Shown: piece by piece, positions 3,898 to 25,730 of the stretch
How the letters are laid out: each line of letters starts with the position of its first letter
Position numbering within the stretch: position 1 is the stretch's first letter
Source: Natronospira proteinivora
Lineage (GTDB): Bacteria > Pseudomonadota > Gammaproteobacteria > Natronospirales > Natronospiraceae
Direction of reading: 5' to 3'
DNA length: 64,000 nt
Assembly (NCBI RefSeq): GCF_024170465.1
Contig: NZ_JALJYF010000001.1
Location: forward strand, 434,001-498,000
Position numbers and translations under genes: made by a program
The notes under the pieces: generated by a model
Told to the model about the DNA's origin: nothing
Database searches by the model: none
Seen by the model: only the letters and a program-made list of their open reading frames with translations

Positions 3898-5034
3898 GTG
3901 ATCCATTCCATTTTTTCCTTGTCCGATGCCGGGGGAGTCTCCCCTTCAGAGGGTGATAACCGCCTCATGGCGCTGCTTTCGGACGATCTGGATGGTGAGG
4001 AGCTGGAAGCCTTCCAGGCATTGCTGGACGGTGCCTTTGACCAGCTTCGTCTGGAAGACGGCAGACTGGTCTTGCCCGAGAGCGGCAAGGGTTTGCCGGC
4101 GGCAGCGGAGCTGGAGGGGCTGGCGGAAGCGCTACAGTCCGGTTCTCCGCCTGAAGATGCCATGGCGGCGTTGGTTCGATTGATGCGGCTTGAAATGGCC
4201 CAGGCAGAGTCTGATGCCCCGTCGCGATCCAAGGCCTTGCCCGAGCTGTTGAATAGCCTGCGTCCTCCCGAACGTGGTCACGCCGCACTGGATTCCCGCT
4301 TGACGGAAATGCGTCCCCTGACCATGGGGGTGGCCCCGGGCCAGGGCGGTCCAGGGTTCGATCTGGGTGGGCGGGACATGATGGCTGACATGGACTGGCT
4401 CAAAAACCGGATCCAGGAGCGCTTGAGCACGCTGTTGTCGACCCAGCAGCAAGGACAGGAGCGGGGAGGCGGTGAGCCCTTGATCCGTGAAGTGGGCTCC
4501 GGAGGCCATCAGGCACAATCTGCCTCGCCCCAGCAACTGGCGGCCCTGATGTCCACCGCCTCCCAGAGTGGCGAGAGCAGCAGCATGAATCGTCTACCCC
4601 CCGTCCAGGCGCCGGTTGGGGGGCCGAACTGGGGCGACGCCCTGGGCCAGCGAATCCTCATGATGAAGGGGCAGGGTATCGATCGGGCAGAGATCAAGCT
4701 GAATCCCCCGCACCTGGGTCCGCTGGAGATCCGGGTAGCTGTCACCCAGGAACAGACCAGCCTCTTGATGTCCAGTCAGCATGCCCTGACCCGGGATGCC
4801 CTGGAGCAGGCCCTGCCCCGTTTGCGGGAAATGCTGCAGGATAAGGGTCTGGAGATGGGCGATGCCGAGGTAAGCGATGGCCGGGAGGAGCAACTGGCTC
4901 AAGAGGAAAAGGGTGACGAGCAGGCAGGAGAGCGGGACGGTGGCACCGGCCCGGGGTCATCCGCCAGCAAGGCGGGAGTGGAAACTGCTGTATTGCGGGA
5001 AGGGCAGGTCTCCCTGTTGGATGAATATGTCTGA
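3898..5034 (+). CDS. fliK: Flagellar hook-length control protein FliK
   Basis: FliK is the secreted molecular ruler that sets hook length and switches FlhB from hook to filament substrates. The 378-residue protein has a variable acidic N-terminal part and a conserved Flg_hook C-terminal domain at about residues 240-330, with the family core AEIKLNPPHLGPLEIRVAV. After that comes a disordered Glu/Gly-rich tail ending LLDEYV. The start is GTG at 3898, 53 bases past a sigma-54-type site; no better start is seen. A second FliK-like gene lies on the reverse strand near 24.3-25.6 kb. Confidence 0.93.
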   Translation: MIHSIFSLSDAGGVSPSEGDNRLMALLSDDLDGEELEAFQALLDGAFDQLRLEDGRLVLPESGKGLPAAAELEGLAEALQSGSPPEDAMAALVRLMRLEMAQAESDAPSRSKALPELLNSLRPPERGHAALDSRLTEMRPLTMGVAPGQGGPGFDLGGRDMMADMDWLKNRIQERLSTLLSTQQQGQERGGGEPLIREVGSGGHQAQSASPQQLAALMSTASQSGESSSMNRLPPVQAPVGGPNWGDALGQRILMMKGQGIDRAEIKLNPPHLGPLEIRVAVTQEQTSLLMSSQHALTRDALEQALPRLREMLQDKGLEMGDAEVSDGREEQLAQEEKGDEQAGERDGGTGPGSSASKAGVETAVLREGQVSLLDEYV

Positions 5035-9584: not shown

Positions 9585-10715
9585 ATGTCGGAACAGAAGG
9601 ATACCAGCCAGGAAAAAACAGAAGAGCCGACACCGAAACGGTTACAGGACGCCAAGAAAAAGGGGCAAGTGCCCCGTTCCCGTGAATTGAGCGCCATGCT
9701 GGTGATGATGACCGGTGCCGTCTTCCTCCTCAGTTTTGGCGGCTTCATGGTGGGAAGTGTGGCGGACGTGTTACGGGAAGGACTGACGCTGGATCCGGAC
9801 CAGGTTCGGGATGCCAGCGATATCCCCATCCAGTTTCGCAAGGCCGTGGTGGCGGGTATTCAGGTGGTGTTGCCCATTATGGGGGTCTTGTTTGTGGCAG
9901 CCTTGGCGGCACCCTCCTTGATTGGGGGCTGGTCATTCAGCCTGGAAAGTGTCCAGCCCAAGCTCAGCAAGATGAATCCCATTAGCGGTTTTCAGCGGAT
10001 ATTCGGGGTCAAGGCCCTGGTGGAACTGGCCAAGGCCATCGGCAAGTTTGGCGCGGTGGCGGTGGTGGCCGCGGTGATTTTCTGGCTGTTTCGGGACCGT
10101 TTCCTGTCCCTGGGCAATGCCCCCATGCCCCAAGGGCTGTTCGATGCCGGCAATCTGGTGGCTTTGTGTTTCCTGGCTTTCACCGCTGCTCTGATCATCG
10201 TGGCGGCCATCGATGTGCCGTTCCAGATCTGGGACAACACCCGCAAGCTCAAGATGAGCAAGCAGGAGGTCAAGGACGAGTTCAAGGAAACGGAGGGCAA
10301 GCCGGAGGTCAAGCGCAAGATTCGCGAGACCCAGCAGGAGATGTCCCGCCGCCGAATGATGGAGGAGGTGCCCAAGGCCGATGTAGTGGTCACCAACCCC
10401 AGCCATTTCGCCGTGGCGCTGCGATATCGCCCCAATCGCGCCAAGGCGCCAGTGGTGGTGGCCAAGGGCGTGGACCGCATTGCCCTGCGTATTCGCGAGA
10501 TTGCCGAGGAAAATCACGTGCCTATCCTGGAAGCACCGCCGTTGGCCCGGGCCTTGCATGGGACTACGGAGTTGGGTGACGAAATCCCGGCACGTTTGTA
10601 TCGCTCGGTGGCGGAAGTCTTGAGCTGGGTCTATCAGCTGCGCCGTCAGCGGGCTCGGGGTGGTCCCCGGCCGAGACGTCCCAATCCCTCCTTGGACGAG
10701 GAGGGTGACGAATAA
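9585..10715 (+). CDS. flhB: Flagellar export switch protein FlhB
   Basis: FlhB sets substrate specificity of the flagellar export gate. It starts with a charged stretch (KTEEPTPKRLQDAKKKGQVP), carries four membrane segments, and then a cytoplasmic domain that self-cleaves within an N-P-T-H motif. Here the motif reads NPSH, with Asn at residue 271, followed by FAVALRY; cleavage falls between Asn and Pro, and Ser replaces the usual Thr. The C-terminal subdomain includes PVVVAKGVDRIALRIREIA and PILEAPPLARAL. The 376-residue length is usual. A separate tail-only homologue is encoded at 23961-24266. Confidence 0.97.
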   Translation: MSEQKDTSQEKTEEPTPKRLQDAKKKGQVPRSRELSAMLVMMTGAVFLLSFGGFMVGSVADVLREGLTLDPDQVRDASDIPIQFRKAVVAGIQVVLPIMGVLFVAALAAPSLIGGWSFSLESVQPKLSKMNPISGFQRIFGVKALVELAKAIGKFGAVAVVAAVIFWLFRDRFLSLGNAPMPQGLFDAGNLVALCFLAFTAALIIVAAIDVPFQIWDNTRKLKMSKQEVKDEFKETEGKPEVKRKIRETQQEMSRRRMMEEVPKADVVVTNPSHFAVALRYRPNRAKAPVVVAKGVDRIALRIREIAEENHVPILEAPPLARALHGTTELGDEIPARLYRSVAEVLSWVYQLRRQRARGGPRPRRPNPSLDEEGDE

Positions 10716-23960: not shown

Positions 23961-24266
23961 TCAGTCGCTGTCATTCTGCCAGCGATCTTCTTCCCTGGGG
24001 TCCCGGCCCGATACCCAATAGGCGAAGGCAATTACCTCGGCCACCGCCACATAGAGCTCTCGCGGAATCGTTTCCCCCACTTCCAGGCGGGTCAGAAAGC
24101 GGGCCAGATCTGGATCCTGGTGGATGGGGATGCCGTATTCCTCAGCCAGGGCCGTGATCTCGCGGGCCAGTTTCCGCCGGCCCTTGACTGAGACCGAAGG
24201 GGCCTGATTGCCGTCATAGTGCAGGGCCACCGCCATTTCGTTTTCCCAATGCCGAGACTCACTCAT
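23961..24266 (-). CDS. FlhB C-terminal-domain homologue (FlhX/YlqH type)
   Basis: A 101-residue protein matching only the C-terminal cytoplasmic subdomain of FlhB: ALHYDGNQAPSVSVKGRRKL aligns with ALRYRPNRAKAPVVVAKG of FlhB here, followed by EEYGIPIHQDPDLARFL. The membrane part and the self-cleaving N-P-S/T-H are absent. Stand-alone proteins of this type can partly replace the FlhB tail in the export gate. Its start overlaps the stop of the upstream FliK-like gene by four bases (ATGA), so the two are made together. Confidence 0.88.
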   Translation of the reverse strand: MSESRHWENEMAVALHYDGNQAPSVSVKGRRKLAREITALAEEYGIPIHQDPDLARFLTRLEVGETIPRELYVAVAEVIAFAYWVSGRDPREEDRWQNDSD

Positions 24267-25570
24267 GCTTCACTCCGCCAGGCCCGCATGGGGAGGGCGG
24301 TTAGTCCCGGGGGCGGTGATCCCGCGCTGACACCGATTCGGTCCAGCCTGAGTTGCTGGGCCCGAAGTCGTTGCCGGAATTCCCCCAGGTGTCGCCTTAG
24401 TTTCTCGATGGTTTCGCCCGTCTCGGCATACAGAAGGACGGAGAGCCGCTCGCCCTGTAGTCGCAATTCCGCATAAAAAGGACCCAGTTCCGCCAAATGA
24501 ACCGCCAGTGTGGCCGTCCAGGCATCCTCGCCGTTGCGCTTTGAGGCTTGTTCTTCGCGTTGTAGATAGAATTGCCAGAGATCGGAGCCGTCCTGGCGCT
24601 GGACCGGCACCTCAAACCAGAGCTGGGTCCGGCCCCCCTCGCTGTCGCCGCTTTGGGAGGCGGCTTGCTGCAGTTCACTGCGGCCCAAGGCCCCTTCGAT
24701 TTGTCGGATAATGATTCGCAAGGCTTCCGGCAAGGACTGCAGCAATTGCCCCTGCTGCCCGGCGACCGGGCTCTGGAGGAGGGGGCTGTTGCCCGGTGGG
24801 GCACTGTTCCAGCCATTCCCGGGGGGAGGTGGGACGGCCCCGGCACGCAGGGTGGCCGGATTGCCGCTGTTTGGCGGGCTTGGTGGTGGCAAGCGCCCGG
24901 CGCGCACGGTCTCTCTCAGGTTCAAAAGGCTGCGCCCCAGGGCGATCTTCCAATCACGCGCCAATGGATCATGGCCACCAAAGCCCCCGGTTGTTGGAAT
25001 TGAGGGTGTATTGGGGTTCAGCATGAGCCGGTTTTCGGCGAACAGGCCGCTATCCCGCAGTGCCTGGCGAACCCCATTGGCAGAGGACAGCTCGTTGACC
25101 GAGCGCATGGCCGTCAGCAGGGGAGCCAGTGCTTGTCTCAGGGCTTCTGGGGGACGGTTGATCTCGCCTGCCGACGGTTGGATGATCAGGCGCAGGCTTT
25201 GCAGCAGGTTGCGGCTGTCCAGCTGTCGAGCCAGACCTTCCCGAGCCAGGGTTTCCCGGGCCAGGGCCAGGCGGTCGGGGTTCGGTCGATTGCTCTGGCT
25301 TTGCCCCGATTGTTCCAGGATGCGCATGTCCAGCGCCGGTCGGACTTGGATCACCTCTAGTAGCAGACGGCTGCCGGGCGCGGGTCGGACATCGCCTCTC
25401 AAGGGTAGCGTGATCTCGCCCACTCTCAGACGAGCCCCTTCCGGGGTCGAGATGACACGGCCTTCCAGGATCTGTCCGGGCCTGAACCACGATGCTGGTC
25501 CCGACGCGCTGCCGCGGTGAAGTCCAGACGGGGCAGGGCGATGAGGGTCGGTGGGGCGAATCTCGGACAT
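24263..25570 (-). CDS. Second FliK-like flagellar hook-length control protein
   Basis: The start is placed at ATG 25570 (MSEIRPTDPHR), giving about 435 residues; ATGs at 25582 and 25612 are alternatives and none has a convincing ribosome site. The N-terminal 70 residues include a compact region (GQILEGRVISTPEGARLRVG) followed by a long Gln/Pro/Ser-rich linker. The C-terminal 120 residues match the Flg_hook fold: LWFEVPVQRQDG, ATLAVHLAELGPFYAELRL and GERLSVLLYAETGETIEKLR. It is co-translated with the FlhB-tail gene, hinting that the two form a ruler-and-switch pair separate from fliK-flhB. Confidence 0.8.
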   Translation of the reverse strand: MSEIRPTDPHRPAPSGLHRGSASGPASWFRPGQILEGRVISTPEGARLRVGEITLPLRGDVRPAPGSRLLLEVIQVRPALDMRILEQSGQSQSNRPNPDRLALARETLAREGLARQLDSRNLLQSLRLIIQPSAGEINRPPEALRQALAPLLTAMRSVNELSSANGVRQALRDSGLFAENRLMLNPNTPSIPTTGGFGGHDPLARDWKIALGRSLLNLRETVRAGRLPPPSPPNSGNPATLRAGAVPPPPGNGWNSAPPGNSPLLQSPVAGQQGQLLQSLPEALRIIIRQIEGALGRSELQQAASQSGDSEGGRTQLWFEVPVQRQDGSDLWQFYLQREEQASKRNGEDAWTATLAVHLAELGPFYAELRLQGERLSVLLYAETGETIEKLRRHLGEFRQRLRAQQLRLDRIGVSAGSPPPGLTALPMRAWRSEA

Positions 25571-25730
25571 GGCGCTGTTCATCCAGAGAGTGATACCGCC
25601 AGTGTAATCCATCCCCGCAGGGTGGACCCAACTGGTTACAATTCGGGCACCGGGGTGCTTGGGATACCGGCTTTATTCAACATAATGCAAGAATGTACCT
25701 TTTCTCACATGACGGGCGGGTGGCTCAATC

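Follow-up and report, generated by a model that had tools for sequence, protein, structure and literature searches.

Stand-alone homologues of the FlhB C-terminal domain, known as FlhX or FlhB2 and matching the C-terminal part of Pfam family PF01312, are short proteins of the CC type that carry neither a transmembrane part nor a cleavage site. Bacillus subtilis YlqH is presumably one of them, and the homologue of Helicobacter pylori (HP1575) is reportedly called a "spare part" in the title of a 2006 paper. FliK and YscP-type switch proteins, which share the Flg_hook domain (PF02120), form the second family relevant here. FlhX is already a named family in two papers (PMC10746217, PMC9321776), one of which mentions in print the adjacency of flhX and fliK in Nitratiruptor (PMC9321776). 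For Salmonella, a 2026 report describes the FlhB CC domain as needed for early secretion, FliK as the trigger of its loss, which flips the export gate to late secretion, and the resulting hook-to-filament switch as irreversible (PMC13344023). Our literature search, which left most subscription papers outside, found no functional study of an flhX–fliK pair. The tightness of the partnership described below, together with the distinct N-terminal domain of its FliK-like member, seems to be new in the searchable literature.

The DNA analysed here (the window) is a stretch of 64,000 nucleotides from Natronospira proteinivora. Its two proteins of interest are labeled FliK2 and FlhX in this work, and the relevant features are as follows.

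24263..25570, reverse strand: FliK2, a FliK-like protein of 435 aa (Pfam Flg_hook, E 7.4e-17)
23961..24266, reverse strand: FlhX, 101 aa, a stand-alone domain of the FlhB CC type that lacks the cleavage site (Pfam Bac_export_2)
24263..24266, reverse strand: ATGA shared by the stop of FliK2 and the start codon of FlhX (sequence)
24273-24276, reverse strand: GGAG 5' of the FlhX start codon, at a gap of 6 nt (sequence)
25301..25492, reverse strand: OB/S1-like domain of five strands at the N terminus of FliK2, roughly residues 27-90 (HMM and AlphaFold2; fold tentative)
24311..24553, reverse strand: Flg_hook (substrate-specificity switch) domain of FliK2 (Pfam and structural model)
3898..5034, forward strand: canonical FliK of the same genome, the other Flg_hook protein, with no match to the N-terminal domain
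9585..10715, forward strand: canonical FlhB of the same genome, full length, with the cleavage motif N-P-S-H

The original prediction, made from the letters of the window, had described a FliK-like and an FlhB-tail reading frame overlapping by four bases on the reverse strand, the latter lacking N-P-T-H, between two chemotaxis modules. Each of these points was confirmed. Both frames are present and share ATGA, the FlhB-tail protein contains no N-P-T-H, and chemotaxis genes flank the pair, with CheW and a DUF2802 protein on one side and CheW, MCP, CheR, CheD and CheB on the other. The longest FliK2 reading frame begins at 25612, and the start at 25570 is backed by a homologue from the same genus (L009). 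The Flg_hook match of FliK2 (PF02120) exceeds the gathering score, with 61.4 bits where 29.8 are required. FlhX covers profile positions 261-334 of the 335 in PF01312 (E 1.5e-20; 74.1 bits, with the cut-off at 24.4), and resembles the described stand-alone homologues in being a short, CC-type member of the same fold family that likewise has no transmembrane part and no cleavage site. However, it differs from NCBIfam TIGR00789 (flhB_rel) by scoring under its cut-off (69.5 bits against 117.35), although this is still its best-scoring NCBIfam model. The genome contains exactly one full FlhB and one Flg_hook protein besides FliK2. A similar pair occurs in Pseudomonas aeruginosa, with the same gene order, a 4-bp overlap and FlhX parts 43% identical to the window FlhX, but it is located next to ccmA and not among chemotaxis genes. 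Its members are annotated as "flagellar hook-length control protein FliK" and "EscU/YscU/HrcU family ... export apparatus switch protein". A stretch carrying ccm genes together with a FliK2–FlhX pair was also seen in two P. aeruginosa plasmid records (L005, L006).

The distribution of the two genes was surveyed with the FlhX profile and PF02120 in 187 evenly drawn gammaproteobacterial genomes of at least 95% completeness, 106 of which have FlhB-family matches. Seventy-two were scored as FlhX-positive: 69 with matches at E <= 4e-25 that are not full FlhB frames, together with G044, with G052, whose FlhX is split, and with G117, whose FlhX is divergent. Sixty-six of these genomes have two Flg_hook matches and six have one, whereas among the 34 FlhX-negative genomes bearing an FlhB-family match 33 have one, one has none and not a single one has two or more (Fisher p ~6e-22, a statistic that ignores relatedness). 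The number of FliK proteins also tracks FlhX within three families that contain both states (G057/G171, G188/G085, G094/G194). A FliK-like gene lies upstream of FlhX in all 72 positive genomes. The two abut, at 30 bp or less, in 70 genomes and are separated by 371 bp and 1.47 kb in the remaining two; a 4-bp overlap is found at 53 of the 72 loci (50 ATGA, 3 GTGA). Among the six positives with a single Flg_hook match, FliK2 abuts FlhX in five (G052, G063, G074, G101, G195), while in the sixth (G178) the FliK-like frame ends 1.47 kb upstream of FlhX with another gene in between. By eye, this intervening gene looks STAS-like (L088). The FliK2 match of G117 is weak (E 1.6e-05). Independent distribution of the two genes, against which the original prediction was to be judged by examining co-occurrence, was not found; the genes co-occur and stay together across this sample. 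On the basis of these Flg_hook counts and the adjacency in class genomes, the partnership can be called obligate.

Two further interpretations of these loci were considered and rejected. An association with polar placement was not seen, as FlhF scores above its cut-off in 65 of the 72 FlhX-positive and 32 of the 34 FlhX-negative genomes. Long open frames at some loci suggested gene fusions, but there the FliK2 frame stops a few bases from the FlhX start and FlhX lies in another frame.

Beyond the class, a phylum-level search of 199 genomes returned frequent short-frame FlhX matches. A FliK-like frame adjoins FlhX at 24 of the 26 loci inspected (L134-L159, some of which belong to the class); at the other two (L156, L158) no such frame was found within the 1.5-kb flank, and the genome of L158 (G248) encodes a FliK2-like protein about 8 kb from FlhX. 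In Bacillota, the pair abuts at all four related loci. Acetoanaerobium encodes one FlhB and two FlhX alongside one FliK and two FliK2, with each FlhX adjoining its own FliK2. The FliK2–FlhX pair is widespread in flagellated bacteria, occurring in other Pseudomonadota and in Bacillota as well as in Gammaproteobacteria, and the one in the window is a typical example. Recurrence across phyla shows that the arrangement is not a product of chance and, together with the Pfam scores, rules out a fortuitous overlap or a mis-called reading frame. No relative of FlhX was found in viral contigs. Five genomes of one family (f168; G244, G228, G234, G279, G263) have three FlhB-family matches, two of which are short FlhX-like frames.

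The ancestry of FlhX was examined in a tree of 44 FlhX and 29 FlhB sequences over 77 columns, with the cleavage-motif columns removed; it included every third gammaproteobacterial FlhX plus the named ones and all others, with L108 excluded. One branch separates FlhX from FlhB (support 97/79, recovered in 96% of 200 bootstrap trees, although the bootstrap had not settled). The split holds across gammaproteobacteria, other Pseudomonadota and Bacillota, and the window protein falls on the FlhX side. In a first tree that retained the motif columns, all FlhB formed one group with a support of 98 and a few FlhX stood beside it, which makes the FlhX side the weaker one. Because FlhX and FlhB lie on opposite sides of a single branch, FlhX is an old paralogue, which rules out a recent local duplication of FlhB and corrects the earlier description of the switch domain as duplicated.

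FlhX begins just ahead of the strand that comes after the cleavage site in FlhB. N-P-T-H is absent from the equivalent place in all 114 labelled FlhX rows except two that were set aside, a mislabelled FlhB with NPTH (L021) and an injectisome-type protein (L174). In FlhB, the motif reads N-P-T-H in most sequences, N-P-S-H in the window genome, in its genus (L029, L034) and in L027 and L035, N-P-M-H in L023 and N-P-N-H in L026. The FlhX profile matches the FlhB CC chains 3b1s_B (E 5e-20) and 3b0z_B (E 6.5e-20). The early-substrate pocket of Salmonella FlhB comprises A286, P287, A341 and L344 according to PMC13344023; with numbering transferred through the alignment of the FlhX profile with FlhB CC, the corresponding positions in 93 FlhX are A in 86, P in 93, A in 93 and I or L in 92. 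Elsewhere the two families differ consistently. Position 38 (window numbering) is R or K in 28 of 29 FlhB and mostly I or L in FlhX, position 56 is R in 28 of 29 FlhB compared with 13 of 93 FlhX, and positions 53 and 57 differ as well. Furthermore, the beta2-beta3 loop of gammaproteobacterial FlhX is about two residues shorter than that of FlhB. Since deletion of residues 281-285 in this loop abolishes secretion in Salmonella (PMC3640470), FlhX may not be a straightforward replacement for FlhB CC. Judged by its residues, FlhX keeps the docking pocket, yet it departs from FlhB CC elsewhere.

These features bear on the possibility that FlhX serves as a spare for the FlhB CC domain in general, working with the ordinary FliK as well, with FliK2 acting as a chaperone or anti-lock that would stop FlhX from clamping the gate in its early mode. 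The conserved pocket fits such a role, as does the "spare part" wording of the title on H. pylori HP1575, whereas the consistent surface differences at positions 38, 53, 56 and 57 argue against a mere spare. Coevolution was assessed by a mirror-tree test on 45 genomes, using rank partial correlations controlled for the transmembrane part of FlhB, for domains that are short. The correlation was 0.17 for FlhX–FliK2 (p 0.047) and 0.26 for FlhX–FliK1 (p 0.002), a difference that falls short of significance (bootstrap interval -0.24 to 0.06); the FlhB CC domain gave 0.26 with FliK1 (p 0.003) and 0.12 with FliK2 (p 0.098). Pair-specific sequence coevolution was thus not found, as the test did not single out FliK2 as the partner of FlhX in these 45 genomes, and an exclusive FlhX–FliK2 partnership at the sequence level is not supported. 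That FlhX is tied to FliK1 at least as strongly as to FliK2 agrees with a shared spare domain. Nevertheless, FliK2 homologues usually retain a FliK-type tail and the Flg_hook fold, which is more than a chaperone would need, and we consider this explanation unlikely, albeit worth serious attention.

The original prediction had also presented FliK2 as a second ruler. At its C terminus, FliK2 indeed resembles the FliK and YscP-type proteins. The model of this part has the switch domain of PscP as its top match (Z 7.8), and 2rrl, the C-terminal domain of FliK, comes third (Z 5.2), although full-length FliK2 is modelled poorly (mean pLDDT 41.1). Of 76 FliK2 rows, in which one genome is counted twice, 74 end in A, V or I and 52 carry D four from the end. 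All 25 canonical FliK end similarly, with D, S or N at that position. For Salmonella FliK, the five final residues are proposed to contact FlhB CC (PMC13344023). In the window protein the tail is RSEA, so the acidic residue is lost, as it is in two relatives of the same genus.

The N-terminal part of FliK2 is different, with an OB/S1-like domain of about 60 residues replacing the canonical FliK N-terminal region. A profile built from gammaproteobacterial FliK2 finds this domain in 66 of 74 FliK2, partly by construction because these formed the building set, with two copies in seven; five of the eight proteins missing it are truncated frames. Outside the building set it was detected in 24 of 34 further FliK2, including four of five from Bacillota, and in none of 25 canonical FliK (the 34 and 25 being distinct genomes or loci). 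No Pfam or NCBIfam family matches the domain above its cut-off, and no PDB sequence match was found below E 0.07; three of 20 N-domains weakly match Pfam RNase_II_C_S1 (best E 0.00054). Modelled alone with AlphaFold2 (four sequences), the domain forms five strands with a mean pLDDT of 76.6. The structural neighbours are mostly OB/S1 chains (NusA, Tex, RNase II, IF5A) at Z 4.5-5.7, none reaching Z >= 8, and Foldseek returned no match at E <= 0.001. These matches are no more than suggestive of an OB/S1 fold.

This domain bears on two further explanations. Were FliK2 genuinely a second ruler that sets a different length state of hook or rod, and FlhX the switch domain matched to it, the C-terminal switch domain and the FliK-type tail of most homologues would be accounted for. 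However, the OB/S1-like part, sometimes doubled, has no counterpart in the 25 canonical FliK, and the genome has a single complete FlhB. The sequence points away from the N-terminal region of the canonical hook ruler, "second ruler" is probably wrong, and we regard the corresponding explanation as improbable. Alternatively, the pair could be mainly regulatory, with the OB/S1-like domain binding nucleic acid or a gate protein and thereby coupling the state of the gate to flagellar gene expression. The S1 and OB neighbours and the weak RNase_II_C_S1 matches are in line with this suggestion, but OB folds bind many ligands and all Z scores lie below 6, so that it appears no less improbable. A search for sigma-54- and sigma-28-like sites, allowing up to two mismatches, found none immediately upstream of FliK2 on the same strand.

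We infer from sequence, with about an even chance of being right, that the FliK2–FlhX pair is ancient and serves the flagellar type III export gate as an accessory cassette for switching specificity. Its fold family, retained pocket residues and missing cleavage site suggest that FlhX would amount to an FlhB CC domain supplied already cleaved, one that offers the early-substrate docking pocket. By docking, it could take the position of the cleaved CC fragment on the FlhB CN stub. FliK2 would be its FliK-type partner, and the gene overlap suggests that the two are usually translationally coupled. The C-terminal switch domain of FliK2 is predicted to bind FlhX, FlhB CC or both and to determine when the bound domain sits on the gate and when it is off it. 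Given that an OB/S1-like domain replaces the canonical N-terminal region, FliK2 is likelier to act as a loader or remover at the gate than as a second ruler of the hook. The mirror-tree result, the RSEA tail of the window protein, the shorter FlhX loop and the promoter search all count against the switch-cassette reading.

A bolder version envisages a second lock that can be reset. Once FlhB CC has been ejected by FliK, the gate would be re-occupied by FlhX, which FliK2 would deliver or strip; the switch would thereby become reversible or tunable in the flagellated bacteria retaining the pair, and FliK2 would represent a new class of FliK-type proteins in which an OB-domain loader replaces the ruler; we consider this speculative and rather unlikely. 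If a free domain of the CC type, linked to a FliK-type protein of its own, is present in approximately two thirds of the flagellated genomes of the class, the account in PMC13344023 may be incomplete outside the model species. The pair also offers a direct genetic handle on whether the hook-to-filament switch can be reset.

The link of the pair to the flagellum is drawn from its companions, its location and its fate. A further FlhB-family match is present in 70 of the 72 FlhX-positive genomes and is full-length in the rows examined, except in G117, where the frame is shorter (370 aa). FlhX lies within 20 kb of FlhB in 34 of the 35 genomes listing both on one contig, and the pair is thus usually located near the flagellar cluster. 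In G063, whose assembly comprises about 590 contigs, no complete FlhB was seen. Two FlhX-negative genomes have a second FlhB-family match. That of G184 is a second full-length FlhB, and that of G139 is an FlhX relic split into two frames (L318, L319), about 16 kb from FlhB and with no recognisable FliK2 adjoining it. G052 has neither FlhB nor a second FliK, and its FliK2 and FlhX are each interrupted by a copy of one 290-bp insert, the copies being 96% identical (L109, 2099-2387 and 3284-3571); a broken pair in a genome without FlhB supports the flagellar tie. The matched accessory unit envisaged at the outset is in keeping with genes that co-occur, stay together and usually lie near the flagellar cluster, and both G052 and G139 are consistent with the pair decaying together.
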